Assembly: GCA_016841725.1 (NCBI GenBank)
Contig: JAENYP010000018.1
Span: 1-64,000, forward strand
Length of the DNA stretch: 64,000 bases
Source of the DNA: Thermincola carboxydiphila
GTDB lineage: Bacteria > Bacillota > Thermincolia > Thermincolales > UBA2595
Direction: 5' to 3'
Below the pieces are notes generated by a model that had not been told where the DNA came from, ran no database searches, and saw only the letters and a list, made by a program, of their open reading frames with translations. The position numbers were made by a program, and so were the translations under genes. Of the stretch, positions 17,313 to 42,550 are shown one piece after another. Within the stretch, counting starts at the first letter, position 1. Each line of letters opens with the position of its first letter.

Positions 17313-17620
17313 AGTTGAAATGACCGTGAACGAATATGGTGAGGCATTGTACTGATTTTCCGCAGCATCGCCTATGTGTCTAACTGAAAATCCCCTGGCA
17401 GCAAGGCAGCGTCCCCGAACTCGATGGCTCATTGGGTTTATAAATTAAGATGGCCGCCTCTCGTTTTGGCAAGCCAAAACTTCCCGGCGGCCTTCGCCAT
17501 CTTCGCACATGCGGGGACTCCCTGCCTTGTTGCCGGGGCTTTACAGCAAGACTCATAACGGCGTCACTGCAAGTAAAATCTCATACAACACCTCACCATA
17601 TTTTACGGTCATCTCCAATT
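17313..17620. repeat. Long foldback element, family A, copy 1 (about 308 bp)
   Basis: The ends are related inverted repeats of about 35 bp: GAAATGACCG followed by AATATGGTGAGG on the left, and CCTCACCATATT followed by CGGTCATC on the right. Almost the whole interior is self-complementary, for example AAGATGGCCGCC pairs with GGCGGC...GCCATCTT around a centre near CGTTTTGGCAAGCC. It has no open reading frame of note. Copy 2 lies at 29893-30208; a minimal copy lies at 927-993 and a lone end at 19411-19447. Layout fits a MITE-like element. Confidence 0.8.
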
Positions 17621-23681: not shown

Positions 23682-23730
23682 GTAAATAATGTCATTTAAA
23701 GAAAAATGCAGTAGAGGAGGATATACAAGA

Positions 23731-24717
23731 ATGACAGTCAAAGTCGGAATCCCTAGGGCGCTGTTGTTTTATTATTACTTTCCCATGTGGAACGGTTTTT
23801 TTAAGGCACTGGGAGTTGAAGTTATCTTATCCAGAAATACAACCAAAGGCATTCTTGATAAAGGTGTCAGGCAGTCGGTTGATGATGCCTGCCTGCCGGT
23901 AAAACTCTTTTTCGGGCATGTCCTTGATTTAAAGGACAGGGTTGATTACCTGTTTATACCACGGATGGTTAGTGTGGAACGAAAGGAATACATCTGTCCC
24001 AAGTTTCTGGGCCTGCCGGATATGATCAGGCACAATGTTCCGGACCTGCCGCCCATCATAGACATTACTGTGAATATGTCACGCAGGGAAAAAAACCTTT
24101 ACAAGGCTTTTGCCGAAGCAGGAAAGCTCTTCACAGCCAACCCGTTGGCCGTCCGCAAGGCTTTTCGCGCGGGGCTTGAGGAACAGGAGAGATTTCACCG
24201 GCTCAACCACCTGGGATACCTGCCTCATGAAACAATTGAACAGATGAGCAGAGGGCTGGTTAACCAGAACTATTCCCCGGCACAAACAGGAGATATGACA
24301 ATTGCTCTGGTTGGACACGGGTATAATATTTATGATTCATATATAAGTATGGACCTGATTGAAAAACTCAGGAATATGGGAGTAAGGATTGTTACCCCGG
24401 ATAACCTTACCGGCACAATTATTGAGGAAAAGTCCGATGAACTGCCCAAAAAGATGTTTTGGACCCTCGGTAAACGAATGATAGGTTCAGCATTTCATTA
24501 TATGAGGTCTGACAGGATAGACGGAATCATTCATGTTGCTTCATTTGGTTGTGGGCCGGATTCCTTTACGGGTGAAATAATTGAAAGACATCTGCGCAGG
24601 AGAAGGAACATCCCGTTCTTGAATCTGACAATTGATGAACATACCGGTGAAGCCGGAATAATCACCAGACTTGAGGCTTATGTGGATATGATCAGGTGGA
24701 GGAGGGCTGCACTATGA
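23731..24717 (+). CDS. CoA-dehydratase-activase-related protein (COG3580-like)
   Basis: A 328-residue protein starting MTVKVGIPRALLFYYYFPMW, the typical start of the DUF2229/COG3580 family related to the accessory domains of 2-hydroxyacyl-CoA dehydratase activators. Conserved cysteines occur in DDACLPVK, YICPKFLG and FGCGPDSF, which probably bind a cluster, and HTGEAGIITRLEAYVD near the end is a family signature. ATG 23731 has GAGGAGG upstream. It overlaps the next gene by four bases. The three-gene set is common in Clostridia and is likely to transfer electrons at very low potential with ATP. Confidence 0.85.
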   Translation: MTVKVGIPRALLFYYYFPMWNGFFKALGVEVILSRNTTKGILDKGVRQSVDDACLPVKLFFGHVLDLKDRVDYLFIPRMVSVERKEYICPKFLGLPDMIRHNVPDLPPIIDITVNMSRREKNLYKAFAEAGKLFTANPLAVRKAFRAGLEEQERFHRLNHLGYLPHETIEQMSRGLVNQNYSPAQTGDMTIALVGHGYNIYDSYISMDLIEKLRNMGVRIVTPDNLTGTIIEEKSDELPKKMFWTLGKRMIGSAFHYMRSDRIDGIIHVASFGCGPDSFTGEIIERHLRRRRNIPFLNLTIDEHTGEAGIITRLEAYVDMIRWRRAAL

Positions 24718-25847
24718 AAGTTACATTTCCTCACATGGGCAATATGTATATTTGTTTAAAAGCGCTTTTGACATCCCTGGGGGTTGAAGTGGTCGTGCCG
24801 CCAATGCCCAGCCAAAAGACGCTTACCCTGGGGACCCAGCATTCACCAGAATTTGCCTGCCTGCCCTTGAAAATCAACATGGGCAATTTCATTGAAGCAT
24901 ATGAACAGGGAGCTGATACTATCCTTATGGCAGGCGGGATCGGCCCCTGCAGGTTTGGCTATTATGCTCAGGTAGAGAGAGAGATTCTTGAGGACATGGG
25001 GCTGAAGATGAATATGGTTGTACTGGAACCGCCCCAGAAACACCTTTCGGAACTGCTGATAAACATACGGAAGGTTACAGGCAACCGCTCATGGGTTGAT
25101 ATCGTCAGGGCAATAAGGTTCGCTTGGTATAAGGCCAGGGCAGTTGATGAGGTGGAGGAAATCCTGCACCGGATAAGGCCGCGGGAATTTGAACCGGGAA
25201 GTGCAGACGCGGTTTATAAAAAAGCCCTTAAGTGGATTGATGATGCTCCGGACAGGAAAGAACTCAAAAAAGCAGTAGAGGCTGCCAGGCTGGAACTTGA
25301 CGCGATACCAATCGACAGGGAGCGGGAGGTTGTCAGAATCGGCATAGTCGGAGAAATCTATGTGATGCTGGAGCCTTTTGTTAACCTGGAGGTGGAGAGA
25401 CAGCTTGGCCGGCTTGGGGTAGAAGTGGAGCGCTCCATATACCTGAGTGAATGGATTAATGACCACTTATTCATGGGCCTGCTTAACATTAAGGGCAGCA
25501 AAGAGGCCCGGAAACTCGCGCCTCCCTATGTTAATCACTTTGTTGGCGGACATGGCCAAGAGACTATTGGGAGTACGGTTTTGTTTGCCAATCGTAAATA
25601 TGACGGGGTTATTCAGGTGCAGCCATTTACCTGTATGCCGGAGATTGTAGCTGAGAGCATTATCCCGACAGTGAGCCGGGATCTGGGAATTCCGACATTT
25701 TGCCTTATAGTTGATGAACACTCCGGTGATGCCGGGGTATTGACCAGACTGGAAGCATTTGTTGACCTCCTGGAAAGAAAAAAGGAAAAAAGCGCTGTAC
25801 CCGAGAGTACTGAAAAGAAAGGAGAACAGGTATGTTTGGATATTTAG
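24714..25847 (+). CDS. CoA-dehydratase-activase-related protein (COG3581-like)
   Basis: A 377-residue paralogue of the preceding product. MKVTFPHMGN and CLPLKINMGNF correspond to its first cysteine region, and GGIGPCRFGYYAQ and QPFTCMPE provide further cysteines. The C-terminal HSGDAGVLTRLEAFVDLL repeats the signature of the upstream gene. It starts at ATG 24714 inside the upstream stop and its end overlaps the ASKHA gene by 16 bases, so the three are tightly coupled and probably form one complex. Confidence 0.85.
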   Translation: MKVTFPHMGNMYICLKALLTSLGVEVVVPPMPSQKTLTLGTQHSPEFACLPLKINMGNFIEAYEQGADTILMAGGIGPCRFGYYAQVEREILEDMGLKMNMVVLEPPQKHLSELLINIRKVTGNRSWVDIVRAIRFAWYKARAVDEVEEILHRIRPREFEPGSADAVYKKALKWIDDAPDRKELKKAVEAARLELDAIPIDREREVVRIGIVGEIYVMLEPFVNLEVERQLGRLGVEVERSIYLSEWINDHLFMGLLNIKGSKEARKLAPPYVNHFVGGHGQETIGSTVLFANRKYDGVIQVQPFTCMPEIVAESIIPTVSRDLGIPTFCLIVDEHSGDAGVLTRLEAFVDLLERKKEKSAVPESTEKKGEQVCLDI

Positions 25848-26809
25848 GCATAGATGTGGGTTCTGTAAGTACAAATATTGTACTTATTGATGAGGATGAA
25901 AAGGTATGTGATTCCCTCTATATAAGGACACAGGGACAGCCGATAAAAGCTGTGCAGAAAGGCCTGGAGTATATCAGGGGGAGGATTTCTGACGAAATTG
26001 TAATTGGGGGTGTCGGCACAACCGGAAGCGGCAGGCATCTTGCCAGTATTATCGTGGGAGCCGATTCGGTAAAAAATGAGATTACATCCCATGCTGTTGC
26101 AGCCTCGAACCTGGTTCCGGGGGTCCAGACGGTCCTGGAAATAGGCGGACAGGACTCCAAGATAATTATCCTGAGGAATGGTGTTGTTGCCGATTTCGCC
26201 ATGAATACCGTTTGTGCGGCAGGGACCGGTTCATTTCTGGACCAGCAGGCTGCTAGACTTAATATACCGATAGAGGAGTTCGGGGATATTGCTTTAAAAG
26301 CCGGAAACCCGGTGCGGATAGCAGGAAGGTGTTCGGTTTTTGCCGAATCAGATATGATCCACAAACAGCAGATGGGACATAATCTTCCTGATATCCTGGC
26401 AGGCCTTTGTGATGCCCTGGTGCGGAATTACCTTAATAATATAGGTAAAGGCAAGGAGATACTGGAACCGGTAATTTTCCAGGGTGGTGTGGCAGCAAAT
26501 ATCGGGATTAAGAAGGCATTTGAAAAAACGCTTGGTGTGGAGGTTATTATCCCGGAGCATTATGATGTCATGGGAGCAGTCGGTGCAGCCATTCTGGCCC
26601 GGGATGCCGTCAGAAAAACCGGGACTACGTCTTTTAAGGGATTTGGAGTGGCAGAAGAGATGTTTGAAGCTACCAGCTTTGAATGCAAGGACTGTCCTAA
26701 TCTCTGTGAGGTAATACAAATCAAGGCCGGCGGACAAATAATGGCCCGGTGGAATGACAAGTGTGGCAAGTGGAGCAATGCAATTGGAGAGAAAAAGAAA
26801 ATTAGTTGA
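25832..26809 (+). CDS. Acyl-CoA dehydratase activase ATPase (BcrAD/HgdC type)
   Basis: A 325-residue ASKHA-fold ATPase. The first phosphate loop is GIDVGSVSTN, the second region has GTTGSGR and EIGGQDSKI, and the cluster cysteines lie in NTVCAAGTGSFLDQQ near residue 130 and AGRCSVFAESD near 170. HgdC-type activators use ATP hydrolysis to push an electron from a dimer-bridging [4Fe-4S] cluster into a partner enzyme. A C-terminal CKDCPNLC extension of about 50 residues adds further cysteines. No dehydratase subunit lies nearby, so the acceptor is unknown. The stop overlaps the promoter of the downstream transporter operon. Confidence 0.88.
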   Translation: MFGYLGIDVGSVSTNIVLIDEDEKVCDSLYIRTQGQPIKAVQKGLEYIRGRISDEIVIGGVGTTGSGRHLASIIVGADSVKNEITSHAVAASNLVPGVQTVLEIGGQDSKIIILRNGVVADFAMNTVCAAGTGSFLDQQAARLNIPIEEFGDIALKAGNPVRIAGRCSVFAESDMIHKQQMGHNLPDILAGLCDALVRNYLNNIGKGKEILEPVIFQGGVAANIGIKKAFEKTLGVEVIIPEHYDVMGAVGAAILARDAVRKTGTTSFKGFGVAEEMFEATSFECKDCPNLCEVIQIKAGGQIMARWNDKCGKWSNAIGEKKKIS

Positions 26810-26835
26810 CAGAGACTTTTGTATCATGGTAAACT
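26806..26835 (+). promoter_or_regulatory. Sigma-A promoter of the dctPQM operon
   Basis: TTGACA (26806-26811) and TAAACT (26830-26835) are separated by 18 bases. The -35 element overlaps the stop of the upstream gene. Transcription would begin near 26842, giving a leader of about 165 bases. Confidence 0.55.
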
Positions 26836-26846
26836 TTTAATAAATC

Positions 26847-26979
26847 CGGGAGACAAAAGGCAGGATACCCGGACCAGATGAGATGAGATATAAGACGAGT
26901 CGAGCATAGCTGAGGTGAGTTTGCTGCACTTATGGAGGATTTTACCAGCACTCATTTGAGGTGCTGGTTTTTGTTTGTC
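26847..26979 (+). promoter_or_regulatory. Predicted MtrB-type tryptophan attenuator, dctPQM leader
   Basis: The leader has a 5' stem-loop (CCGGG with CCCGG, about 26847-26872), then nine NAG triplets: CAG 26875, GAG 26880, GAG 26885, AAG 26892, GAG 26897, GAG 26902, TAG 26907, GAG 26912, GAG 26917. Spacers are 2 bases except one of 4. An intrinsic terminator follows (ACCAGCAC with GTGCTGGT, 26944-26968, and a T-run). The triplet end GTGAGT..GCTG (26916-26929) can pair with CAGCACTCAT of the terminator 5' arm. This is the layout of trp RNA-binding attenuation protein sites; occupancy would favour termination. Confidence 0.65.
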
Positions 26980-27006
26980 CATGAAATGATATAAGGAGGT
27001 AGAAAG

Positions 27007-28047
27007 TTGAAAAAGAAAATTGTGTTAAGTGTAATTTTAGTTGCATTCCTGGCTGCCGGGATAATTTTTTCGGGGTGCAGTTCAGGAGAAAAGGGTGCCC
27101 TTGGGGATGACAAGCAAATTACCCTGAGGTATGCATTTTTTGCGCCGGCCACCACCTTTCCGGCAAAACAGATGGAGAAGTGGAAGGAAGAACTTGAAAC
27201 CAGGACCAATGGAAAGGTCAAGGTGGAACTATTCCATGGTGGGACACTGCTGACAGATAAAAATATGTATGACGGTGTCAGGGACGGAGTGGCTGAGATT
27301 GGCCTGTCCTGCACTACATATGAACCGGGAAGGTTTCCGCTGATGGCGGTTGCAGACCTGCCTTCAGGGTTCACCAACTCCAAAGTTGCCAGCCAGGTGG
27401 TTTTTGACCTGGTAAGCGAGTACCCACCCGAAGCCTTCAAGGATTACAAAATTATTACCGCATTTGCCACAGAACCGTCACACCTGATGGTTAAAGAACC
27501 GGTTGCCAAATTGGAAGACCTTAAGGGACGCCAGTTGAGGATATCCGGCGCCCTGACCCCTGTATTGGAGGAACTGGGAGCTTCTCCGGTGGGGATGTCT
27601 ATGTCAGAAGTTCCTGAAGCTCTGCAGACCGGAATCGTTAAAGGTCTTGTCAGTTCCAGGGAAGTCCTTAAGGACCTGAAGCTTGCGGAAAATGCCAGGT
27701 ATACCACTGATTATCCGCTGACAATAACTACCTTTGTTGCAGTTATGAACAAGGATATATGGGAATCCCTGCCCCCTGATGTGCAGCAGGTAATAGACGA
27801 ACTGAGCGGTGAAATGGCAGTGTGGACCGGAGATTATATGGATAATCATGTCAAGGATGCCTTAGAATGGAGCAAGCAGGAATACGGGCTGCAGATGACA
27901 ACTCTGACACCGGAAGAAACGGCAAGATGGGATGCGAAACTAAAGCCTATTCAGGATAACTATGTTGCTGAAATGGAGGGCCAGGGACTTCCGGCAAAGG
28001 CTTATCAAAAGAGGCTCTATGAGCTTATAGAAAAATACAGTAACTAG
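27007..28047 (+). CDS. Tripartite transporter solute-binding protein (DctP family)
   Basis: A 346-residue lipoprotein: basic start, hydrophobic segment and lipobox FSGC near residue 23. The mature part is a DctP/TAXI-type binding protein (YAFFAPATTFPAKQMEKW at the start, a GRQLRISGA strand with the substrate arginine near residue 177, and the ALQTGIVKGLVSSREV motif). It hands its ligand to the DctQM permease by a sodium-coupled mechanism. The ligand is not evident. Similarity of its leader to a tryptophan attenuator suggests an aromatic acid. The start is TTG 27007 after AAGGAGG. Confidence 0.9.
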   Translation: MKKKIVLSVILVAFLAAGIIFSGCSSGEKGALGDDKQITLRYAFFAPATTFPAKQMEKWKEELETRTNGKVKVELFHGGTLLTDKNMYDGVRDGVAEIGLSCTTYEPGRFPLMAVADLPSGFTNSKVASQVVFDLVSEYPPEAFKDYKIITAFATEPSHLMVKEPVAKLEDLKGRQLRISGALTPVLEELGASPVGMSMSEVPEALQTGIVKGLVSSREVLKDLKLAENARYTTDYPLTITTFVAVMNKDIWESLPPDVQQVIDELSGEMAVWTGDYMDNHVKDALEWSKQEYGLQMTTLTPEETARWDAKLKPIQDNYVAEMEGQGLPAKAYQKRLYELIEKYSN

Positions 28048-28067: not shown

Positions 28068-28601
28068 TTGGGGGTTTTAGAAGAACAAATTGTACGTGAA
28101 AGAAACAGGGATACAGTATCCCGGCTTGAAAGCCTAAGCAGGTATCTGAACACAGGGCTTGCCGTCATAGCAGGCTGCAGTCTGCTGCTGATGGTGCTGA
28201 CAGTTGTGGCAAACGCCGCAGCCCGGGAAATATCTGCTCCATATGCCGGGACTACCGAAATAGTCGGCTGGCTGGCAGCGGTGACGACAGCCTTTGGCCT
28301 GGGGTACACCCAGCTTAATAAAGGCTATGTTGATATTGAAGCACTGGTGGAAAGATTTCCAATGGGAGTTCAGAATGCTTTAAAAAGTATTATGCTTTTT
28401 GCCAGCACGATTTTCTTCGGACTTGTAAGCTGGAAGGTCTGTGTCTATGGGATTAATGTCGCTGAAAACGGCAACCTTTCCGAAACAATGGGAATTACCT
28501 TCTACCCCCTGATTTTTCTGGTAGCCCTTGGATTTGCAGGACTGACCCTGGCGCTTCTGGTGGACTTTCTTAAACAGGTAACCGGGGGTGTGGAGAAATG
28601 A
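28068..28601 (+). CDS. Tripartite transporter small permease (DctQ family)
   Basis: A 177-residue protein with four membrane helices (about residues 25-50, 65-85, 105-125 and 145-165), the DctQ pattern, including the NAAAREISAPYAGTTEI stretch in the first loop. It forms the membrane complex with DctM. TTG 28068 follows a weak ribosome site. It overlaps dctM by four bases. Confidence 0.9.
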   Translation: MGVLEEQIVRERNRDTVSRLESLSRYLNTGLAVIAGCSLLLMVLTVVANAAAREISAPYAGTTEIVGWLAAVTTAFGLGYTQLNKGYVDIEALVERFPMGVQNALKSIMLFASTIFFGLVSWKVCVYGINVAENGNLSETMGITFYPLIFLVALGFAGLTLALLVDFLKQVTGGVEK

Positions 28602-29887
28602 GCCTTTTGACAATGGCTATGGTCGGGATGCTGCTGCTGCTGGTGTTAATGCTGCTGAGAATGCCGATAAGTTTTGCCATGTTTATTGTGGGGTTCCTCG
28701 GCCTTATGGTTGTGGTTTCACCTACAGCTGCCTTCAATGTACTCAGTGCGGACCTGTGGAACCAGTTTTCCAGCTACTCTATGAGTGTCATCCCCTTGTA
28801 TATATTTATGGGTGAAATAGTGTTCCGGAGCGGTGTTACCGAAAGCCTTTTCAAGGCGGCATACAAATGGGTAGGGCAGTTCAGGGGCGGGATGGCAAGC
28901 ACAGTTATCCTGGCCAGTTCGGGTTTTGCCGCCATCTGCGGTTCAAACTCGGCGACTGCTGCAACCATGGGCACCATGGCCCTGCCGGAACTGAAAAAAT
29001 ACAAATATGATGAGACATTAAGCTCAGGTGTTGTGGCAGCAGGAGGTACCCTTGGGGTAGTGATTCCGCCCAGTACGGTACTGCTGGTTATTGCCCTCCA
29101 GACAGAACAGTCTGTCAGGCAGTTGTTTGTTTCCAGCATTATACCCGGGGTAATTCTGACCATGACCTTTCTGGCCATCGTGTATTTTCTGTGTATGAAA
29201 AACCCCGAATTGGGGCCGGCCGGGCCCAAGACGACTTTCGCAGAGAAACTCAGGTCACTGATAGGGGTTATTCCCACCCTGGCGCTGTTTATTTTTGTTA
29301 TCGGAGGCCTTTTGCGCGGCTGGTTTACCCCGACGGAGTCAGGCGCCTTTGGAGCCTTTGGGGCGCTGGTAATAGCGATTGTGATGCGGAAACTGACCTT
29401 TAACAATCTTAAGGACGCCATTTCGGGAACCCTGAAATCAGCAACAATGGTGATTACACTGATGATAGGGGCTATGGTGTTTGGGAGATTCCTTACCATA
29501 ACCAGGCTGCCGTACGATATTGCGGCCTGGACCGGTTCCCTGGATGTAGCCCCGGTACTTATACTGTCGGCTATCCTGGTGATATTCGTTATTGGCGGCG
29601 CACTGATGGATGCTCTGGGGTTCCTGATTATTTCGATCCCGATTTTTTTCCCTACTATCATCGCACTGGGATATGATCCGGTATGGTTTGCCGTGGTACT
29701 ATGCATGGTAACCACTGCCGGTGCCATCACACCACCGGTTGGGGTATCGGTTTTTGTGGTCAAGGGACTGACACCTGATACACCCATTATGTCAATTTTT
29801 AAGGGTGCGGGCTATTTCCTGGCTGCTTATGCGGTAGTTACCATTTTGCTTATTGCCTTTCCGAAGATTGTCACTTTTATGCTTTGA
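28598..29887 (+). CDS. Tripartite transporter large permease (DctM family)
   Basis: A 429-residue protein with about 11-12 membrane segments. The family stretches GSNSATAATMGTMALPE near residue 110, GGTLGVVIPPS and FTPTESGAFGAFGAL are visible. It is the ion-coupled transport subunit. The gene is last in the dctPQM operon and is followed by a long foldback element rather than a simple terminator. Confidence 0.93.
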   Translation: MSLLTMAMVGMLLLLVLMLLRMPISFAMFIVGFLGLMVVVSPTAAFNVLSADLWNQFSSYSMSVIPLYIFMGEIVFRSGVTESLFKAAYKWVGQFRGGMASTVILASSGFAAICGSNSATAATMGTMALPELKKYKYDETLSSGVVAAGGTLGVVIPPSTVLLVIALQTEQSVRQLFVSSIIPGVILTMTFLAIVYFLCMKNPELGPAGPKTTFAEKLRSLIGVIPTLALFIFVIGGLLRGWFTPTESGAFGAFGALVIAIVMRKLTFNNLKDAISGTLKSATMVITLMIGAMVFGRFLTITRLPYDIAAWTGSLDVAPVLILSAILVIFVIGGALMDALGFLIISIPIFFPTIIALGYDPVWFAVVLCMVTTAGAITPPVGVSVFVVKGLTPDTPIMSIFKGAGYFLAAYAVVTILLIAFPKIVTFML

Positions 29888-29892
29888 ATGTA

Positions 29893-30208
29893 GGCTCACG
29901 GAAATGACCGGGAATGAAATATGGTGAGCTGTTGCACCGATTTTCCGCATTGCCGCCTATGAGTCTAAGCTGCCGCCCACCGGCAACAAGGCAGCGTCCC
30001 CGAACTTGATAGCTCATTGGGGTTATTCTAATAAGATAGCCGCCTCTCGTTTTGGCAAGCCAAAACTTCCCGGCGGCTTTCGCTATCTTCGGACATGCGG
30101 GGACTCCCTGTCTTGTTGCCGGTGATACATAGCAAGACTCAGAACGGCGGCATTGCCAGGAAAATCTTGTACAACACCTCACCATATTCCTCGGTCATTT
30201 CCGGAGCC
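29893..30208. repeat. Long foldback element, family A, copy 2 (316 bp)
   Basis: The ends are GGCTCACGGAAATGACCGGG and, on the complementary strand, GGCTCCGGAAATGACCGAGG. The interior folds on itself as in copy 1: CCGGCAACAAGGCAGCG pairs with the segment ending CTTGTTGCCGG, and AAGATAGCCGCC pairs with GGCGGC..GCTATCTT. Where copy 1 has a G-C pair in the last stem, this copy has A-T, so pairing is kept. No coding sequence. It fills the gap between dctM and the opine-dehydrogenase gene. Confidence 0.85.
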
Positions 30209-30254
30209 AATGAAAAGAAAAAAATAACAAAAAAACTATAAGGAGATTTATGAA

Positions 30255-31343
30255 ATGGATATAGCTGTGATAGGAGGCGGCCATGGAGCTTATGCTGCGG
30301 CTGCCGACCTGGCAGAAAAAGGACACAGTGTCCGGTTATGGAGGCGTAACCGGGAGGAATTCCAGCCTGTTATCAAAAAACAGGCTATTATTTTAAAAGA
30401 TTATAATGGCACCAGGAGTGTTAGGCTGGCACTTGCCGGCAGCGACATTGCTGAGGTTGTCCAAGGCGCCCGGATCCTGGTAATTCCTCTTCCGGCTGTG
30501 GCACAGGAATCATTGGTGCAGGAACTGGCCCCCTGCCTGGAGGATGGGCAGGTAATCCTGCTCTGCCCGGGAACTTTCGGGAGTTTTGTGATGGCCGGGG
30601 GACTCAGAGAAAAGGGTTGTTCTGCCCGGGTTGTTTTTGCGGAAACAGGGACCCTTCCATACCTGGCGAGGAAACACGGGCCGGATACGGTTGCAGTCAC
30701 TACGCGGGCGACCCGCCTGCCAACCGGTGTTTTTCCGGCAGATAAATCTGATTATGCTTTTGAAATAATAAAAGAGGCTTATCCTGCAGCAGAGATGTTG
30801 ACAGATGCCCTTGACGGGGCGCTGATGAATGCGGGACCTATTATCCATCCCCCGCTGATAATGCTGAATGCCGGGCCCATTGAACACTTTGACTTCTGGG
30901 ATATTCACAATGAGGGTACCCAACCGGCTGTGCGCAGGGTCCATGATGCCCTGGATGCGGAGCGGATAGCTGTGAGGGAAGCCCTTGGCTACGGTCCGCC
31001 GCATTTTCCTCTTGCAGACCATTACAACAGTACCGGCGGAGATGAATGGATGTACGGGAATGCGGCTCACGAGAAGCTTGTTGACAGCAGTGACTGGCGG
31101 GAACGCCTGGATCTTTACGGGCACCGGTACATGACTGAGGACATTGCCTGTGGTCTGGCATTTCTGGTATCTGTGGCTGACTGGGCAGGAATTGATGTAC
31201 CTGTGGCCCGGGGGATATTGACTCTGGCGTCAGCGATTTTGGGCAGAGACCTGCGTTCCGGATCCAGAACTCTGGAAGGAATGGGTCTGAGAGGATTAAC
31301 GGATATGGAAATGAAGAAACTGCTGGCAGAGGGTGTATTTTAA
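30255..31343 (+). CDS. NAD/NADP octopine/nopaline dehydrogenase family protein
   Basis: A 362-residue dehydrogenase. The Rossmann dinucleotide motif is IAVIGGGHGAYAAAADLAEKG with the charged turn after it at RRNREEF; the C-terminal opine-dehydrogenase domain shows GPIIHPPLIMLNAGPIE near residue 195 and a conserved His-Asp region (HFPLADHYNST). Such enzymes reduce an imine formed between an amino acid and a 2-oxo acid. The substrate is unknown, but neighbours that handle aryl pyruvates make an aromatic 2-oxo or amino acid possible. AAGGAG precedes ATG 30255. The next gene overlaps the stop by one base. Confidence 0.85.
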   Translation: MDIAVIGGGHGAYAAAADLAEKGHSVRLWRRNREEFQPVIKKQAIILKDYNGTRSVRLALAGSDIAEVVQGARILVIPLPAVAQESLVQELAPCLEDGQVILLCPGTFGSFVMAGGLREKGCSARVVFAETGTLPYLARKHGPDTVAVTTRATRLPTGVFPADKSDYAFEIIKEAYPAAEMLTDALDGALMNAGPIIHPPLIMLNAGPIEHFDFWDIHNEGTQPAVRRVHDALDAERIAVREALGYGPPHFPLADHYNSTGGDEWMYGNAAHEKLVDSSDWRERLDLYGHRYMTEDIACGLAFLVSVADWAGIDVPVARGILTLASAILGRDLRSGSRTLEGMGLRGLTDMEMKKLLAEGVF

Positions 31344-32329
31344 TGATGAGGGATAAACCTGTTATTGCAGTAGTTGGCGCCGGGCGCATGGGCATAGGCA
31401 TCGCCCATGTTTTTGCATACTCCGGTTACAGAGTGAGGCTGCTTGACGCCCGGGACAGGTCTTCACAAGAGACACAACAGGTGTTGGGTTCAGCAGAGAG
31501 ACAGGTGAGGGAGACCCTGGCAATGCTGGCCTCACTTGGGGTGATGGAAGAAAACCAGGTGAACACAATCATGTCCCGGATTGGCTATTTCGGAATGGTA
31601 CAGGCGGAGGAAGCGCTTAAGGATGCCGGTGTGGTATTTGAAGCGGTTCCTGAAGTGATGGAAATAAAACGTAGTATTTTTGGTCTTATCAGCAGCCTTG
31701 CAGAAGAAAAAGCCCTTATTGCATCAACAACATCCACGTTTTTGTCTGATAGCCTGGCCGCTTTTGTAACTTCCCCGGAGAGGTTTATGAATACACACTG
31801 GCTGAACCCGGCCTACCTTATTCCACTTGTGGAAGTAAGTCCTGCAGAGGGTACAGGTTTTGCAGAGGTTGAAGCCATGGTCAGACTCCTTGAAGCAGCA
31901 GGCAAAGTTCCGGTCAAATGTGCGGCTTCCCCCGGTTTTATTGTGCCGCGCATCCAGGCATTGGCTATGAATGAGGCTGCCAGACTGGCAGAGGAGGGAG
32001 TTGCTTCTCCGGAAGACATCGATAAGGCAACAAGGGTTGGTTTCGGTCTGAGGTTTGCTGTCCTGGGACTTCTTGAATTCATTGACTGGGGTGGAGGAGA
32101 TATTCTGTATTATGCGGACAATTACCTCAAAGATGCCCTCAAAACAGACCGGTATGAGCCGCCCGAGATAATTGTGTCAAATATGGAGTCAGGCAGAACC
32201 GGCCTGAGAGCAGGAAAGGGGTTCTATGATTTCACCGGTTTGGATGTGGACTCATACCGGCGCGAAACAATCAAAAAGTTTGCCGACCTGCTGATTCACC
32301 TGGGCCTGTTTACCAGACCACCTCAATGA
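31343..32329 (+). CDS. 3-hydroxyacyl-CoA dehydrogenase family protein
   Basis: A 328-residue NAD-binding protein: VAVVGAGRMGIGIAHVFA-type N-terminus, the acidic LLDAR turn, and the STTSTFLSDSLA and MNTHWLNPAYLIPLVEVSP blocks that hold the catalytic Ser, His and Asn of the 3-hydroxyacyl-CoA dehydrogenase family. It lacks a crotonase domain. Members of this single-domain group include 3-hydroxybutyryl-CoA dehydrogenase and enzymes acting on small hydroxy acids such as carnitine or gulonate, so the substrate is open. It is coupled to the opine-dehydrogenase gene. Confidence 0.85.
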   Translation: MMRDKPVIAVVGAGRMGIGIAHVFAYSGYRVRLLDARDRSSQETQQVLGSAERQVRETLAMLASLGVMEENQVNTIMSRIGYFGMVQAEEALKDAGVVFEAVPEVMEIKRSIFGLISSLAEEKALIASTTSTFLSDSLAAFVTSPERFMNTHWLNPAYLIPLVEVSPAEGTGFAEVEAMVRLLEAAGKVPVKCAASPGFIVPRIQALAMNEAARLAEEGVASPEDIDKATRVGFGLRFAVLGLLEFIDWGGGDILYYADNYLKDALKTDRYEPPEIIVSNMESGRTGLRAGKGFYDFTGLDVDSYRRETIKKFADLLIHLGLFTRPPQ

Positions 32330-32357: not shown

Positions 32358-32386
32358 CTGACAAATATTTAAAACTGTGTTACAAT
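32358..32386 (+). promoter_or_regulatory. Sigma-A promoter of the iorAB operon
   Basis: CTGACA (32358-32363) and TACAAT (32381-32386) are separated by 17 bases, one mismatch each to the consensus. Transcription would start near 32393, leaving a leader of about 225 bases. Confidence 0.6.
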
Positions 32387-32436: not shown

Positions 32437-32531
32437 TAGAAGAGATGAGTAAGCAGAGTTGAGCTGGAACTGATGAGCTGAGCATAATCAGTTTATTAGG
32501 CCAGGCTTTTTGAAAAAAAAGACCTGGTTTT
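32437..32531 (+). promoter_or_regulatory. Predicted MtrB-type tryptophan attenuator, iorAB leader
   Basis: Eight NAG triplets lie at TAG 32437, GAG 32442, GAG 32447, AAG 32451, GAG 32456, GAG 32461, GAG 32475 and GAG 32480, with spacers of 2, 2, 1, 2, 2, 11 and 2 bases. A terminator follows: CCAGGCTTTTT (32501-32511) with AAAAAGACCTGG and a short T-run. The competing antiterminator is AGCTGG (32462-32467) plus AACTGAT (32468-32474) pairing with ATCAGTT (32487-32493) and CCAGGCT. Its 5' strand overlaps a triplet and its 3' strand overlaps the terminator arm. Confidence 0.6.
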
Positions 32532-32617: not shown

Positions 32618-34465
32618 ATGACTAGGAAAATGCTGTTGATGGGAAATGAAGCCATCGCCCGCGGAGCGGTTGAAGCAGGTGTCCAGGTAGCTGCGGCCTA
32701 CCCCGGAACTCCTTCTTCCGAAGTGTTCAGCACCCTGGCAAGGTTTGCCGAGGAGTATGATTATTATGCCGAGTGGTCAGTAAACGAAAAAGTGGCCCTC
32801 GAGGTTGCGGCAGGAGCTGCCTATGCAGGTGCGAGAGCAATTGTGTCAATGAAACAGGTTGGCCTTAATGTTGCTGCTGACCCGCTGATGACACTGGCAT
32901 ATATTGGGGTAAAGGGAGGGCTGGTACTGGTGGTTGCCGATGACCCCGGACCTCACAGCTCTCAGAATGAACAGGATACCAGAGTATTTGCCGGGTTGGC
33001 CAAACTGCCGGTGTTTGACCCGGCATCTCCCCAGGAAGCCAAGGACATGACAATCGCTGCTTTTGAACTCTCAGAGAGACTTAACCTTCCTGTCTTTATA
33101 AGGCCGACAACTCGTACCTGTCATGTGTGTCAGGATGTCGTGATTAATGAAACCGGTCTGCGAAACAGTATTGGGTTTAAAAAAGACCCTTCATGGGTTA
33201 TTTTCCCCAGTCTTGCATACAAAAAACACAAATGGTTGAATGAACAGCAGGAAGCGGCCCGAGAGATTTTTAATGAATCACCTTTTAACAAGCTCGAACT
33301 TAAAACCAGAGCAGGCATCATTGCTTCCGGAGTGGCCTATAATTATGTCAAAGAGGCCTTGGATATGCTTGATATGGAAGTTTCCGTCCTTAAGATTGGG
33401 ACACCGTATCCGCTGCCAGACAAACAGGTGCTGCAGCTCTTGAAAAATACCGACAGGGTCCTTGTTATTGAGGAACTGGAACCTGTTGTCGAGGACCAGG
33501 TTATTGCGATGGCCTGGAAGAATGGTATAGCTGCCGGGATTTCCGGAAAAAACGATACGTTTGTACCGCGCGAGGGAGAACTTAATGTAGATAAGGTCAG
33601 GGATATTTTGGTGCGTTATTTCGGTCTGGCCGGCAGTGAAGCTTCTCAGGCTGCAGATGATGAGTCTCAGGCTGCACCCGGTGTAAACAGGAACTCTGAT
33701 AGTACTCCCGAAAAACCGGTTCTTCCTGAGAGGGCCCCCATTCTTTGTGCCGGATGTCCCCACCGGGCTTCATTCTATATTTTTAAAGAAACAGCCCGTA
33801 AAGATGATGCTGTGTTTACCGGTGATATCGGGTGTTACACCCTTGGGGTAATGCCGCCGCTCAGCGCAATGGATACCTGCCTGTGTATGGGCGCCAGTGT
33901 TACTATTGCATCAGGTATGGCAGCTGTGGAAAAAGACCGGAAGCACATCGCCTTCCTGGGGGATTCAACATTTTTCCATACAGGTCTGGCAGGCCTGATA
34001 AATGCGGTTTATAATAACTCAGACATTACCCTTGTTGTGCTCGATAACAGAACTACGGCTATGACAGGCCACCAACCGCATCCCGGGCTGAACCGGACGG
34101 CAACGGGCATGAATGAGAAGCATATAGATATTGCCGGTGTGGCCAGGGCAGTCGGGGTGGAACTTGTCAGGGAAGTTGATCCCTATGACCTGGAGGCTGC
34201 CAGGGAGGCAGCCATTGCGGCTGTTGCCCATAAAGGGGTTTCGGTTGTAATCATGAAACGGGAATGTATAGCTATTGTAAAAACTGTTAAGAAATGCACA
34301 GTTGACACCGAAAAGTGTATCGGGTGCAAGAAGTGTATGAACGATCTGGGCTGCCCGGCCCTGGTTCCTGATGGGGATAAGGTTGCCATAGGCAATACCT
34401 GTAACGGGTGTAATGTCTGTGGGCAGATATGTCCTGTCGGGGCAATCGGGGAGGTGGTCTTATGA
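32618..34465 (+). CDS. iorA: Indolepyruvate ferredoxin oxidoreductase, alpha subunit
   Basis: A 615-residue thiamine-diphosphate enzyme subunit. With IorB it interconverts aryl pyruvates with aryl-acetyl-CoA, CO2 and reduced ferredoxin. The N-terminal pyrimidine-binding domain has GNEAIARGAVEAGVQVAAAYPGTPSSE split over residues 9-35; the diphosphate domain has GDIGCYTLG and the GDSTF...N pattern near residues 450-470; two [4Fe-4S] sites close the protein (CIGCKKCMNDLGCP and CNGCNVCGQICP). A glutamine- and alanine-rich linker near residue 345 is specific. It leads iorAB-paaK-trpB2. Confidence 0.95.
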   Translation: MTRKMLLMGNEAIARGAVEAGVQVAAAYPGTPSSEVFSTLARFAEEYDYYAEWSVNEKVALEVAAGAAYAGARAIVSMKQVGLNVAADPLMTLAYIGVKGGLVLVVADDPGPHSSQNEQDTRVFAGLAKLPVFDPASPQEAKDMTIAAFELSERLNLPVFIRPTTRTCHVCQDVVINETGLRNSIGFKKDPSWVIFPSLAYKKHKWLNEQQEAAREIFNESPFNKLELKTRAGIIASGVAYNYVKEALDMLDMEVSVLKIGTPYPLPDKQVLQLLKNTDRVLVIEELEPVVEDQVIAMAWKNGIAAGISGKNDTFVPREGELNVDKVRDILVRYFGLAGSEASQAADDESQAAPGVNRNSDSTPEKPVLPERAPILCAGCPHRASFYIFKETARKDDAVFTGDIGCYTLGVMPPLSAMDTCLCMGASVTIASGMAAVEKDRKHIAFLGDSTFFHTGLAGLINAVYNNSDITLVVLDNRTTAMTGHQPHPGLNRTATGMNEKHIDIAGVARAVGVELVREVDPYDLEAAREAAIAAVAHKGVSVVIMKRECIAIVKTVKKCTVDTEKCIGCKKCMNDLGCPALVPDGDKVAIGNTCNGCNVCGQICPVGAIGEVVL

Positions 34466-35049
34466 GAATGGACATAGTTATTGCCGGAGTCGGAGGACAG
34501 GGTACAGTTCTTGCTTCACGGGTTATTGCCCAGGCTGCTCTTGATGCCGGACTTGCGGTACGCACCTCGGAAACAATTGGAATGGCCCAGAGAGAAGGTA
34601 CTGTTACCAGTCATGTGAGAATTGGCGAACCTCTTTATGGAGCTCTTATACCTGACGGGTCAGCAGATGTACTGCTAGGTTTTGAAATGGCGGAAACCGC
34701 CCGCTGGCTGCACAAGCTCAAACCGGGTGGAACAGTTCTGGCAAACAGCGCCAGGATAATACCCGTATCTGTGGCCAGTGGGAGGTCGAAATATGAGGCT
34801 GATACCATAATGGAATACCTTAGGTCAACTACCGATAGCCTGACCATGCTGGATGCCACAGAGTTGGCGATAAAGGCAGGAAATTACCGGGCGACCAATA
34901 CCGTACTTTTGGGGGCGATGTCAACCCTTCCCTGTTTACCGTTTAAATCAAAAGGCCTGTTGTCTGCATTACTGGAGACAATTCCTGCTAAGTTAAGAGA
35001 TATTAACAGCCGGGCATTTGAGCTGGGCAGGCAGGCTGTGGAGGTGTGA
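34462..35049 (+). CDS. iorB: Indolepyruvate ferredoxin oxidoreductase, beta subunit
   Basis: A 195-residue gamma-domain subunit: VIAGVGGQGTVLASRVIAQAA at the start and SETIGMAQREGTVTSHVRIG near residues 38-57 are typical of 2-oxoacid oxidoreductase gamma/beta chains. ATG 34462 overlaps the iorA stop, indicating coupled translation in equal amounts. A start further upstream would lie within the iorA ferredoxin domain. paaK follows in four bases. Confidence 0.93.
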   Translation: MRMDIVIAGVGGQGTVLASRVIAQAALDAGLAVRTSETIGMAQREGTVTSHVRIGEPLYGALIPDGSADVLLGFEMAETARWLHKLKPGGTVLANSARIIPVSVASGRSKYEADTIMEYLRSTTDSLTMLDATELAIKAGNYRATNTVLLGAMSTLPCLPFKSKGLLSALLETIPAKLRDINSRAFELGRQAVEV

Positions 35050-35052
35050 TAG

Positions 35053-36336
35053 GTGGCTGTTGAAGAGAGAGAATGCAATGTGGAGATTGATTTTGAAGAA
35101 CTATTTGAGGAGCAGAGCCGGAAGCTTTCAGCCATGGTTGAGAGTTTGTACCGGAATTCGCCGTTTTACCGGGAAAAGCTCGATAAAGCAGGCATCAAAC
35201 CAGAAGATGTCCGGTGTGTGCAGGACCTGGAAAAGGTTCCGTTTACTACCAAGAGCGAGCTTAGGGAAGGATATCCCTTTGGTCTGATGGCTGTTCCCGA
35301 AGAACAGGTGGTCCGGATACATTCATCTTCAGGTACTACCGGTAAGCCGATAATTGTTCCCTATACCAAGAATGATGTCTCTGTCTGGGCTGAGATGATG
35401 GCCAGGTGTATGGAAATGGCAGGGGTAACCCCCAGGGACCGGGTGCAGGTAACCCCAGGTTATGGTTTATGGACTGCGGGCATTGGCTTTCAGGCCGGTG
35501 TGGAGCAGCTGGGAGCAATGGCAATCCCGACAGGCCCGGGAAACACCGAGAAACAGCTGGAAATGATGGTTGATATAGGGACTACAGTTCTGATAGGAAC
35601 TTCATCATATGGCTTACTCCTTGCTGAAGAAATTCATAAAAGAGGTATCAGGGACAAGGTGAAGCTCAGAATAGGCATATTTGGTTCGGAGCGTTGGAGT
35701 GACAAGATGCGGGCCCGGATTGAAGAGGATCTTGGAATCGACACCTTTGACATTTATGGCCTTACGGAAATATATGGTCCCGGCATTGGAATAGACTGCC
35801 CCAGGCATCAGGGAATCCATTTTTGGAGTGATCACCTGATATTTGAAATTATTGATCCTGAAACAGGTAAACAGCTTCCGCCGGGAACCCAGGGAGAACT
35901 GGTGATTACCACCCTTACGAAGGAAGGCATGCCGCTCTTGCGATACCGGACTCATGATGTATCTACACTGCACAGGGAGAAGTGCCTTTGCGGGAGTCCG
36001 TTCCCGATGATTGACCGGGTACTGGGCCGAACTGATGATATGATTAAGGTTAAGGGTGTAAATATATACCCCGGACAGATTGACCATGTGCTCAGGATGA
36101 CTGCGGGAGCCTGCAGTGAATACCAGATTGTACTTACCAGAGAAAATGCCAAGGACCGGATCCTCATCAAGGTGGAAGCAGAAGATGGCTGCGGGTTGGA
36201 GAAGGTATCCGGGGAATGCAAAAAGAACATCAAGACAAAAATAGGCATAATAGCAGACGTCGAGACTGTGCCCAGGGGAACCCTGCCCAGGAGTGAAAAG
36301 AAAACCAAAAGAGTTTATGATAATCGTGACTGCTGA
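35053..36336 (+). CDS. paaK: Phenylacetate-CoA ligase family enzyme
   Basis: A 427-residue AMP-forming ligase that activates phenylacetate, or a related aryl acetate, to its CoA thioester. The P-loop is HSSSGTTGKP near residue 95; the YGLTE-type motif appears as DIYGLTEIYGPG near 235-246; TKEGMPLLRYRTHD near 295 is the A8-like hinge region; and the C-terminal AMP-binding domain is present. The length is normal. GTG 35053 follows GAGGTGTG. Directly after iorAB, it could feed or drain the aryl-acetyl-CoA pool of IorAB. Confidence 0.9.
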   Translation: MAVEERECNVEIDFEELFEEQSRKLSAMVESLYRNSPFYREKLDKAGIKPEDVRCVQDLEKVPFTTKSELREGYPFGLMAVPEEQVVRIHSSSGTTGKPIIVPYTKNDVSVWAEMMARCMEMAGVTPRDRVQVTPGYGLWTAGIGFQAGVEQLGAMAIPTGPGNTEKQLEMMVDIGTTVLIGTSSYGLLLAEEIHKRGIRDKVKLRIGIFGSERWSDKMRARIEEDLGIDTFDIYGLTEIYGPGIGIDCPRHQGIHFWSDHLIFEIIDPETGKQLPPGTQGELVITTLTKEGMPLLRYRTHDVSTLHREKCLCGSPFPMIDRVLGRTDDMIKVKGVNIYPGQIDHVLRMTAGACSEYQIVLTRENAKDRILIKVEAEDGCGLEKVSGECKKNIKTKIGIIADVETVPRGTLPRSEKKTKRVYDNRDC

Positions 36337-36361: not shown

Positions 36362-36388
36362 GAGAGGAGATCTGATGAGATGAGTGAG
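36362..36388 (+). promoter_or_regulatory. GAG-triplet cluster over the trpB2 ribosome site
   Basis: GAG triplets lie at 36362, 36367, 36377, 36382 and 36386. They span the GAGGAG ribosome site and the ATG at 36380. By analogy with translational MtrB targets this could be a third tryptophan-sensitive site, but five triplets is few and ribosome sites are GAG-rich by nature. Confidence 0.35.
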
Positions 36389-37738
36389 ACTAAAATTCTG
36401 CTTACAGAAAAGGAAATGCCGACTTCGTGGTACAATGTGATGGCAGATATGCCAAACCTGCCAAAACCGGCGCTTCATCCGGCAACCCAGAAACCGGTTG
36501 GACCGGAAGACCTTGGGGCCATATTTCCTATGGACCTGATCAAACAGGAGGTATCCACAGACCGCTGGATTGAAATTCCTGAAGAGGTACAGGAGATTTA
36601 TAAGCTGTGGCGGCCTGCCCCGCTTTACCGGGCGTACAGGCTGGAAAAGGCTTTGGATACGCCGGCAAAGATTTATTACAAATATGAAGGGGTCAGCCCT
36701 GCAGGAAGCCATAAGCCAAACACGGCTATACCTCAGGCTTATTACAATAAAGCAGCCGGGATAAAGCGCCTGACCACTGAGACAGGAGCGGGACAATGGG
36801 GCAGCGCCCTGAGTATTGCATGTAAATTTTTTGACATGGAGTGCCTGGTGTATATGGTAAAGGTCAGTTACCACCAGAAGCCATACCGCCGGATTTTCAT
36901 GCAGACATATGGCGCTAATGTAATTGCCAGCCCCAGTGATACCACCGAATCAGGGCGCAAAATCCTGGAGCGTGACCCGGATACGGCGGGCAGCCTTGGA
37001 ATGGCTATCAGTGAAGCAGTGGAAATTGCAGCCCAGAGGGGCGATACAAATTATGCCCTTGGAAGTGTGTTAAACCATGTTATGATTCACCAGTCTGTTA
37101 TTGGCCTGGAAGCAAAGGCTCAGCTGGAGAAGGTGGGCGATTATCCTGACGTAGTAATAGGGTGCTGCGGCGGGGGCAGCAACTTCTCAGGCCTGGCATT
37201 CCCATTTATGCAGGATAAACTCACAAAAGGCACCAAAATAAGGGCTGTTGCAGTCGAACCTGCTGCCTGCCCGACACTGACAAGAGGAAAATTTGCTTAT
37301 GACTTCGGTGATACTGCCGGAATTGTGCCGATACTTAATATGTATACCCTGGGACATGACTTTATGCCGCCCGGAATCCATGCCGGAGGCTTGAGGTATC
37401 ACGGGGAATCTCCGCTGGTCAGCCAGTTGTATCATGATGGCATTATTGAGGCAGTGTCCAGGACACAGCGGTCCTGTTTTGAGGCTTCAATCACCTTTGC
37501 CCAGAGTGAAGGCATCCTGCCTGCTCCGGAATCATCACATGCTATCCGTGTGGCTATAGACGAGGCACTACAGGCAAAGGAAGCAGGGGAAGAGAAGACT
37601 ATCCTGTTCTGCCTCAGCGGCAACGGATATCTTGACCTGCCATCCTATGATGCATACATTAACGGTAAACTGGAAGACTATGAATACCCGGATTCTCTGA
37701 TTGAGGAGTCCCTGAAAAAGCTTCCGGTAAAAGAATAA
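36380..37738 (+). CDS. trpB2: Tryptophan synthase beta chain, TrpB2 type
   Basis: A 452-residue PLP enzyme that condenses indole with serine to tryptophan. The catalytic lysine lies in AGSHKPNTA near residue 114; the phosphate loop is [10 protein letters not shown] near 257-266; [12 protein letters not shown] follows the family. The long N-terminal extension and the overall length mark the TrpB2 branch, which usually works without TrpA and rescues free indole. No trpA or other trp biosynthetic genes are near. It is the last gene of the aryl-pyruvate operon and is followed by a terminator. Confidence 0.93.
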
Positions 37739-37792: not shown

Positions 37793-37959
37793 TAATATCA
37801 AAATACAAAACGCTAAAAGAATCAGCATTACAGAGTAAATGCAAAAAATATGATAAAAAATGAAGTTTAACTGGAAAAATAAATGCAAATATCTTATACT
37901 ATTAATATGTTATTTTTATGGTTGCCAGAAAACGCGCATAGTTGAGGAGGAAGTTAAAA

Positions 37960-39033
37960 GTGAGCGGTGAACTAAGTATTACGTTGACATCTAATTTTAA
38001 AGCCAAACCGCAGAGTGACGCCAAACTGGGTTTTGGCACATTATTTACAGATCATATGTTTGTAATGGATTATGAAGACGGTAAGGGATGGCACAGCCCC
38101 AGGATAGAACCATACGGCAAATTCTGTATTGAGCCGGCGAATATGACACTGCATTATGGACAGGCAATATTTGAAGGAATGAAGGCCTATCGGACGGTTG
38201 ACGGTAAGGTGAAGGTTTTCAGACCCAGAGACTACCTGTCCAGGATGAACCGGTCAGCTGAGAGGCTGTGTATTCCCAAGATAGATGTTGAGTTTGTGCG
38301 CGGCGCCCTGATGAAACTTCTCAGCTTAGAAAAGGAATGGGTTCCTGCCAGTGAAGGGACTTCATTGTATATCAGGCCGTTTATTGTTGCCATGGACCCA
38401 TATATTGGTGTGAGGCCGTCAAAGACATACAGGTTCTTTATTATACTGTCACCTGTAGGCGCATATTATCCTGAAGGGTTCAAACCTGTTAAGATATGGG
38501 TGGAAAACAAGTATGTCAGAGCGGTTAAAGGCGGCACTGGTACGGCAAAAACGGCCGGCAACTATGCTGCCAGTATTTTGGCGGCTGAAGAGGCCAAGGC
38601 CCATGGGTATACCCAGGTGCTATGGCTGGATGGTGTTGAGCGCAGGTATATCGAGGAAGTTGGCACCATGAATATCTTTTTCAAGATAGATGACACTGTG
38701 ATTACACCGGCCCTGGAAGGGAGCATTCTGGGCGGAATGACAAGGGATTCCGTACTGCGGTTGACCAGGGAGTGGGGACTAAAGGTTAGTGAACAGCCCC
38801 TTACTATTGAGGAAGTATATGAAGCACATGATAAAGGGACTCTTCAGGAGATTTTTGGAACAGGTACTGCAGCAGTCATTTCACCCGTTTCAGCCCTTAA
38901 CTGGAAGGGGAATATTATTACTGTAAACGGTGGGGACGCAGGGGAAACCTCGCTGAAGCTGTATGATGAAATAACCGGAATACAGTACGGCAGGTGTTCC
39001 GACATTTTTGACTGGATGGAAGAGGTTGAGTAG
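37960..39033 (+). CDS. ilvE: Branched-chain amino acid aminotransferase (class IV)
   Basis: A 357-residue fold-type IV PLP aminotransferase with ILVE signatures: LHYGQAIFEGMKAYR near residue 65, GGTGTAKTAGNYAAS near 195 (region of the catalytic lysine), and EEVGTMNIFF near 230. It moves amino groups between glutamate and branched 2-oxo acids; homologues also accept aromatic 2-oxo acids, which would suit its neighbours. GTG 37960 is the start because the upstream in-frame TTG is in the GAGGAGG ribosome site. It appears separate from the trpB2 operon. Confidence 0.9.
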   Translation: MSGELSITLTSNFKAKPQSDAKLGFGTLFTDHMFVMDYEDGKGWHSPRIEPYGKFCIEPANMTLHYGQAIFEGMKAYRTVDGKVKVFRPRDYLSRMNRSAERLCIPKIDVEFVRGALMKLLSLEKEWVPASEGTSLYIRPFIVAMDPYIGVRPSKTYRFFIILSPVGAYYPEGFKPVKIWVENKYVRAVKGGTGTAKTAGNYAASILAAEEAKAHGYTQVLWLDGVERRYIEEVGTMNIFFKIDDTVITPALEGSILGGMTRDSVLRLTREWGLKVSEQPLTIEEVYEAHDKGTLQEIFGTGTAAVISPVSALNWKGNIITVNGGDAGETSLKLYDEITGIQYGRCSDIFDWMEEVE

Positions 39034-41330: not shown

Positions 41331-42550
41331 CTAAATTACTGCCTTTTCAACCTTATAGCCCAATGATTTAAGCTTAGAAATCATTTTCTGTTCTTCGGAC
41401 TTGGAGATACGTGTTTTAGCAGGAGGTTCTCTATAAGCTTCTTGCTTTTGAATAATATGGTATATGGCTGTAAGCATGGTCCGTGAAATGGCGACAATGG
41501 CTTTGTTATGACCCCTGCGGGCCTTGATAGAGTTGAACTTGTTGGTAATCCAGGTTCCGGTTTCTTTTACTGCAGCATTTGCGCACTGCACAGGCATTGA
41601 TTTAAGGTAGGAATTGCCTGGTTTGGAGCGTACACGTCTATTCTTACCAGCGGTGCGGTTGTTTTGTGGTGAGACGCCGCCCCAGGAACACAAGTGCATG
41701 GCAGAGTAGAATTTGGACATGTCAGTGCATATTTCTGCGATGATAGCAATTGCTGCAGTTTTTTTAATACCCGGCACAGAACAAAGAAGGTCAATAATCT
41801 TTTGATAAGGCTTAACTTTTCGTCAATCAAGGCTTCAATTTTGGTAATTTTCTCGCTGAGATTAAAAAAGTTGTCCAGGGCAATTCTTATTTTATTAGCT
41901 TGAGTTTCAGTGAGTTCTCCCCTTAAAGCTTCCATAAGTTCAGGAATTTTGCTGCGTAACTTCTTAAGGACAATTAACTGAAGCAAATCTTCAGTAATTT
42001 CCTCTTTGGCGAGAAGGGCAAATATAATATTCATGCCTGATTTGCCAAAGGTATCGGTAGCAACTGATGAGATCATTATATTGGACACAATGAGAGAATT
42101 TTGCACCCTGTTTTTTTCAGCGGAGCGCATTTTAATAAGTTTAGTCCTGTACCTGGTCAGTTCACGTAACTCCCTAATATCTCTGGGGGGAATGAAGCTG
42201 GGGTCAACAAGTCCAATTCTATGTAATTCGGAAAGCCATTTTGCATCGCGGACATCAGTCTTTTTTCCGGGAAAAGTTTTGGTCCGTCTGGGATTAGCGA
42301 GAGTAATGTCAAAATGATCTTCAAACAGGTTAAAAACAGGAATCCAGTACTTACCAGTACTTTCTAAGGCGATGTCCAAGCAGTTGCTTTGCAGGAGCCA
42401 TTCACGGGCAGACAGTATACCTGCCTGCATAGTTGAAAAAGTCTTGGTCCGGACAGAGTATGTGCCGTTAGCTTTAGTCTCATTCAATGCTATTGTGAAG
42501 GACTTTTTGTGAATATCGATACCGGCACAAATGGGATGAATAACCTTCAA
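41331..42550 (-). pseudogene. IS110-family transposase, frameshifted
   Basis: The N-terminal part has the DEDD nuclease motifs CAGIDIHKKSF, ALESTGKYWIP and KKTDVRDAKWL. The C-terminal part has the serine-containing Transposase_20 domain (CSVPGIKKTAAIAI and later SWGGVSPQNNRTAGK). The two are in different frames: the join lies near 41780-41790, where one base is missing between TTGAC and CTTCTTTG. TTG 42550 is the start, after AAGGAGG. IS110 enzymes recombine under guidance of a bridge RNA encoded next to the gene. The element sits right after the recombinase gene; its left end is not defined. Confidence 0.85.

Follow-up and report, generated by a model that had tools for sequence, protein, structure and literature searches.

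A putative tryptophan/MtrB attenuator in front of a DctPQM transporter operon of Thermincola carboxydiphila, with a second one before iorA

Introduction

Which signal controls the dctPQM operon of Thermincola carboxydiphila, and what does its transporter carry? The leader in front of dctP resembles the target of MtrB, the trp RNA-binding attenuation protein (TRAP), which usually binds an array of eleven triplets. The textbook targets of this regulator are few and come mostly from Bacillus: the trp operon, controlled by attenuation, and trpG, trpP and ycbK, which are controlled by blocked translation. A preliminary description of the locus had proposed that dctPQM is switched off by tryptophan through MtrB, and that the transporter probably imports tryptophan or a precursor. 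To gain insight into both questions we analyzed a stretch of 64,000 bp (here referred to as the window) together with the remaining genome and related genomes.

Results and discussion

Composition of the dctP leader

The elements of the leader and the genes of the cluster are listed in Table 1. The promoter sequence was kept in the two genomes of the same genus, G005 and G006. The stem-loop described earlier ahead of the array did fold and is located at the extreme 5' end of the RNA predicted from this promoter. It was found in our strain and in G005, was rearranged in G006 and was not evident in the leaders of other families.

The putative binding array consists of CAG (26875), GAG (26880), GAG (26885), AAG (26892), GAG (26897), GAG (26902), TAG (26907), GAG (26912) and GAG (26917). 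The spacers are 2, 2, 4, 2, 2, 2, 2 and 2 bases long, hence seven of the eight are exactly two bases, and direct reading as well as shuffling bore out the array as first described. CAG and AAG are weaker triplets (2/9), the remaining seven are GAG or UAG. For an MtrB attenuator some 9-11 NAG triplets, for the most part GAG/UAG, with spacers of 2-3 bases are expected, and the array agrees with this apart from its one spacer of four bases and its two weak triplets. The chain score of the array was 6.8, whereas 300 shuffles gave 4.5 at most, and none of 20,000 shuffles reached 6.8. With both strands scored, no other 300-nt piece of the window scored higher.

The last triplets (GAGGTGAGTTTGCTG) can pair with the 5' arm of the terminator (CCAGCACTCATTT), as had been suggested for this leader. 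The antiterminator pairing is possible at the energy given in Table 1, but the minimum free energy (MFE) structure of the full-length leader keeps the terminator hairpin whether the triplets are blocked or not. The choice must therefore fall during transcription, that is kinetically, as in the trp leader of Bacillus.

Table 1. Features of the dctP leader, the iorA leader and the gene cluster (positions within the window)
Feature	Position	Strand	Basis or remark
Promoter, sigma-70-type, TTGACA-18-TAAACT with extended -10 TG	26806..26835	+	predicted start ~26842
5' stem-loop CCGGG/CCCGG	26845..26873	+	fold about -10.5 kcal/mol
Putative MtrB-binding array, nine NAG triplets	26875..26919	+	direct reading, shuffles, arrays in orthologous leaders
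Antiterminator 5' strand, last two triplets and GCTG	26912..26926	+	pairs with 26945-26957, -12.1 kcal/mol
Intrinsic terminator, stem 26944-26968, then T-run	26944..26976	+	-13.5 kcal/mol
Shine-Dalgarno AAGGAGG of dctP	26993..26999	+	sequence; outside the attenuator
dctP, TRAP-transporter solute-binding protein, aromatic-acid clade	27007..28047	+	closest solved relatives 4nap/4pgn/4pgp (Dde_0634), 4n6d
dctQ	28068..28601	+	PF04290
dctM	28598..29887	+	PF06808 / TIGR00786
Octopine-dehydrogenase-family protein	30255..31343	+	PF02317; synteny with dctPQM
3-Hydroxyacyl-CoA-dehydrogenase-family protein (3HCDH)	31343..32329	+	PRK08269
Promoter-like CTGACA-17-TACAAT ahead of the second leader	32358..32386	+	sequence
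Second MtrB-type array before iorA: TAG, GAG, GAG, (AAG), GAG, GAG, gap, GAG, GAG	32437..32482	+	0/500 shuffles as good
Second-leader terminator GCCAGGCUUUUU...AAAAAAGACCUGGU, then U	32500..32531	+	-14.7 kcal/mol, hairpin located by inspection
iorA, indolepyruvate ferredoxin oxidoreductase alpha	32618..34465	+	TIGR03336, 829 bits (cut-off 651)
iorB	34429..35049	+	TIGR03334, 204.9 bits, slightly below cut-off 205.8
paaK-like aryl-CoA ligase (AMP-forming)	35053..36336	+	family match
Weak NAG cluster over trpB2 Shine-Dalgarno and start codon	36362..36384	+	24/500 shuffles as good, not significant alone
trpB2, TrpB-like	36380..37738	+	tryptophan synthase beta chains as nearest solved structures
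Class IV aminotransferase (ilvE_II)	37942..39033	+	family match; own upstream region, no NAG array

MtrB and the trp sites of the same genome

The regulator on which the earlier proposal depended is present. One MtrB is encoded in the genome (G000:C19:30633-30830, E 2.4e-40), and mtrB was found in 10 of 10 genomes of the class. The protein aligned without gaps to solved MtrB. The stretch EKLDKGEV...AQFTEHTSA.KIRGKA including KxR was kept, which carries the RNA and tryptophan contacts known from Bacillus MtrB. No array was found in the region upstream of mtrB itself.

A candidate for anti-TRAP (rtpA) was rejected (G000:C24:32131-32262, L102). Its match to PF15777 was below threshold and lies inside a frame of 374 codons, and it is probably another zinc-binding protein.

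When the 3.88-Mb genome was scanned for runs of five (A/G/T)AG triplets with two-base spacers, three places were found, namely the leaders of dctP and trpE and the start of trpD; weaker arrays such as that of the iorA leader would escape such pattern searches. The trpE leader (G000:C38) carries eleven triplets in two blocks, as opposed to nine in the dctP leader; they end with GATGAGTTTTGCTGGG and are followed by the terminator ACCGGTACTCATTTGAGTACCGGTTTTTT. The array of dctP ends with GGTGAGTTTGCTGC, and its terminator core ACTCATTTGAG is that of the trpE leader. An antiterminator element is common to the trpE and dctP leaders as well (TGAGTTTTGCTGG vs. TGAGTTTGCTG). Judged by their sequences, both leaders plainly share one terminator/antiterminator design, so that the trpE leader serves as an internal positive control.

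At the trpD start (G000:C38:67030-67057, L009) an array of six triplets covers the Shine-Dalgarno sequence and the start codon. Similar arrays were present in the other eight genomes examined. This array is a second, putatively translational MtrB site within the trp operon. Triplets over the Shine-Dalgarno sequence were likewise found at trpB2 of related genomes; the site at trpD would be translational only.

Conservation of the leader among DctP orthologues

DctP orthologues, at 57-96% identity, were well separated from paralogues, at 41% or less. An array followed by a terminator was located ahead of dctP in our strain, G005, G006, G001, G003, Ca. Formimonas warabiya, Desulfofundulus thermosubterraneus, Clostridia bacterium 41_269, Clostridiales K_7_2_bin.50 and G263. 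The attenuator heads a paaK-dctPQM unit in Desulfovirgula and an iorAB-paaK-dctPQM unit in G020. In total, the dctP unit was headed by an attenuator in 12 of the 15 mtrB-bearing genomes with a DctP orthologue, our own included. G287 and both Paenibacillus genomes carried mtrB and the orthologue, yet no clear attenuator, the region upstream of dctP in Paenibacillus having a weak array or none.

None of the 21 regions upstream of distant DctP paralogues carried an attenuator, 18 of them in genomes with mtrB. The difference between orthologues and paralogues was significant (Fisher p 1.3e-6), a value which overstates independence since the genomes are related; the spread across several orders and classes counts for more. 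In two genomes with a DctP orthologue and without mtrB, an actinobacterium and Saccharospirillum, the attenuator was found in neither. Orthologous leaders as distant as those of other orders and classes hence retain the triplets, the terminator and the antiterminator, which answers the question of conservation raised with the first description.

Ten leaders located before dctP or paaK were folded, and in each of them the terminator's 5' arm pairs with the end of the array plus a short element behind it. This element varies (GCTG, GGTT, TTGGTG, ATTGGG, ACTGGTG) in step with its pairing arm. Among 17 leaders of dctP, paaK and trpE the native antiterminator pairing averaged -13.8 kcal/mol versus -12.6 kcal/mol for swapped arms, thus 1.2 kcal/mol better, and 88 of 20,000 permutations were as low.

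By all sequence criteria except the 5' stem-loop, which was seen within the genus and was not evident elsewhere, the dctP leader belongs with the MtrB transcription attenuators. MtrB control of the dctPQM leader is very likely and well supported by the comparison. The proposed switching-off of dctPQM by tryptophan gains support from mtrB, the conserved leaders and the matching trpE leader, from which we infer both MtrB binding and the direction of control.

The iorA leader and the trpB2 start

A second leader, absent from the preliminary description, precedes iorAB-paaK and adjoins the 3HCDH-family gene on its 3' side. The membership of iorAB-paaK-trpB2 in the regulated cluster was likewise new. 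The iorA leader contains only five plus two triplets. An array with a terminator was found at the same position in G005, G006, G003 and G001, i.e. in five genomes with our own.

At trpB2 of our strain the triplets form a weak cluster (Table 1). In G002, G007 and G008 a clear array of five triplets overlaps the Shine-Dalgarno sequence and the start codon of trpB2. These genomes are without the dctPQM-iorAB-paaK block, and the activase gene is directly followed by trpB2. The parts of the cluster, with arrays at dctP, iorA and trpB2, thus carry MtrB-type sites independently of one another. Upstream of the octopine-dehydrogenase-family gene no array was found.

Genes and surroundings of the cluster

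The ligase, the indolepyruvate oxidoreductase and the aminotransferase are encoded together in a cluster putatively under tryptophan control. The closest solved structure to the octopine-dehydrogenase-family protein is N-(1-D-carboxylethyl)-L-norvaline dehydrogenase (1bg6). The operons of Ca. Formimonas and K_7_2 are without iorAB and paaK; instead, octopine-dehydrogenase-like and 3HCDH-like genes accompany dctPQM. The same two genes accompany this DctPQM family elsewhere (L062, L067, L069, L070) and are kept with the transporter even in an actinobacterium without mtrB and where mtrB and iorAB are both missing (L069).

Two genes resembling 2-hydroxyacyl-CoA dehydratase/activase and an activase gene (23689-26809) are conserved upstream neighbors. 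They are located directly upstream of the dctP leader, or of trpB2 where the transporter block is missing. The block from dctPQM to paaK seems either to have entered an older gene order, activase-trpB2-ilvE, or to have been lost from it.

A dispersed intergenic repeat of ~270 bases is located at 29940-30225. About 20 near-full-length copies of 84-89% identity were found in the genome, as well as fragments and partial inverted matches. Copies were present between trpG and trpD and at 17355-17616 of the window. Downstream of the cluster an IS110-like transposase gene, judged from its translation, spans 41567-42550.

Cargo of the transporter

Among solved structures, 4n6d and those of Dde_0634 matched DctP with E 1e-82 or better, the next with 1e-39. 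The TM-scores to the TarP and Dde_0634 structures were 0.82-0.86. DctP is ~43% identical to Dde_0634, and identities across the TarP/Dde_0634 comparison were 43-46% or less. Dde_0634 was nearest by fold as well, followed by TarP proteins solved with coumarate, cinnamate, ferulate and 4-hydroxyphenylacetate. The ligands of Dde_0634 presumably include D-tryptophan and indolepyruvate. This protein binds indoleacetate (PMC9973260). Gene content and this nearest characterized binding protein favor an indole carboxylate over tryptophan itself as the substrate. The import of tryptophan or a precursor, as originally proposed, is thereby supported and narrowed.

It is possible, though we consider it unlikely, that MtrB controls the operon while the cargo is tryptophan or another aromatic acid and not an indole acid, such as phenylacetate or 4-hydroxyphenylacetate for phenylalanine and tyrosine, or an aromatic precursor. 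The ligands of the TarP proteins would fit the latter, the IorAB and PaaK families can be broad, and iorAB and paaK are missing from some orthologous operons. However, the closest characterized relative of DctP binds indoleacetate, and control by a tryptophan sensor together with the linkage to trpB2 points to tryptophan and not to a supply of phenylalanine or tyrosine. Tryptophan as the cargo has a parallel in the importer trpP of B. subtilis, which is controlled by MtrB (PMC3971595). Against it, the attenuator heads the units paaK-dctPQM and iorAB-paaK-dctPQM, so that import appears tied to CoA activation, and imported tryptophan would need no ligase.

A catabolic or exporting cluster, leading from tryptophan via indolepyruvate to indoleacetate, with an array of other purpose, is improbable. 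IorAB and PaaK homologues do act in the fermentation of aromatic amino acids in other organisms, which would suit such a cluster. But the architecture equals that of the trpE leader, so that tryptophan should turn dctPQM off, and a catabolic operon would call for the opposite sign; moreover, transporters of the DctPQM type are importers, and TrpB2 makes tryptophan. Finally, it is very improbable that the leader is purine-rich by chance, or that it represents an RNA element, Shine-Dalgarno-like or of another kind, in which MtrB has no role: AG-rich leaders can yield runs of NAG and Rfam had no match in the window at gathering thresholds, but 0 of 20,000 shuffles were as good, the other two such places in the genome are trp sites, and the array is conserved alongside mtrB and missing from the paralogues.

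Proposed mechanism

Taking these results together, we hold with considerable confidence that 26842-26979 represents a tryptophan/MtrB attenuator, that a second one is located before iorA, and that the cluster most likely imports and converts an indole carboxylate. At low tryptophan, the antiterminator would form between the last triplets and the 5' terminator arm, and dctPQM and the downstream genes would be transcribed. At high tryptophan, MtrB would wrap the array and block the antiterminator, and transcription would end just behind 26968. The second attenuator (32437-32531) would control iorAB-paaK and possibly trpB2 in addition.

MtrB loaded with tryptophan is expected to reduce expression, so that the role of the cluster should be to supply this amino acid. 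The simplest predicted route starts with the import of indoleacetate and/or indolepyruvate. The PaaK-like ligase may convert indoleacetate into indoleacetyl-CoA, which IorAB, working in the reductive carboxylating direction, would turn into indolepyruvate. The aminotransferase could then form tryptophan, and TrpB2 may salvage indole. Substrate, direction of IorAB and each enzymatic step are inferred in this scheme.

Comparison with known systems

The trpEDCFBA leader of B. subtilis is the closest counterpart. It has a 5' stem-loop, an array overlapping the antiterminator and an overlapping terminator, and is bound by the same regulator family. It differs in having eleven triplets and a biosynthetic operon behind it, whereas the dctP leader has nine and precedes a transporter and a putative indole-acid operon. 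The genes trpP (yhaG) and ycbK of B. subtilis are transport genes of the tryptophan economy under MtrB control (PMC3971595), as proposed here for dctPQM. There, however, the control is translational by a blocked ribosome-binding site, while dctPQM would have a transcription attenuator, belongs to an unrelated transporter family and is followed by enzymes.

The aromatic-acid TRAP transporters TarPQM and Dde_0634 share fold and clade with our DctP. To our knowledge, MtrB control has been reported for neither. Likewise, we know of no transporter and no tryptophan-sensing attenuator in the archaeal aryl-acid route of M. maripaludis. This route is a second pathway to aromatic amino acids from aryl acids, in which indolepyruvate oxidoreductase is used for synthesis (PMC4162585), as proposed here for IorAB.

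Regulator and mechanism are known; the target operon appears to be new, no report of it having been found in the open-access literature searched. By this comparison, the MtrB regulon would come to include a salvage pathway and a transporter from a different superfamily, with conservation in several classes of anaerobic Firmicutes. As the regulator responds to tryptophan, a site for it can label the function of otherwise anonymous DctPQM, PaaK-like ligase and IorAB proteins. It would mark them as tryptophan supply, predict the synthetic direction of IorAB there and predict the class of compound carried by the importer. We give roughly even chances to the wider picture of a tryptophan-gated salvage of auxin and indolepyruvate in anaerobic Firmicutes, comprising two attenuators, a TRAP transporter, a ligase and an indolepyruvate synthase, through which CO2-fixing anaerobes may use reductive carboxylation to regain tryptophan from the indoleacetate that they scavenge.
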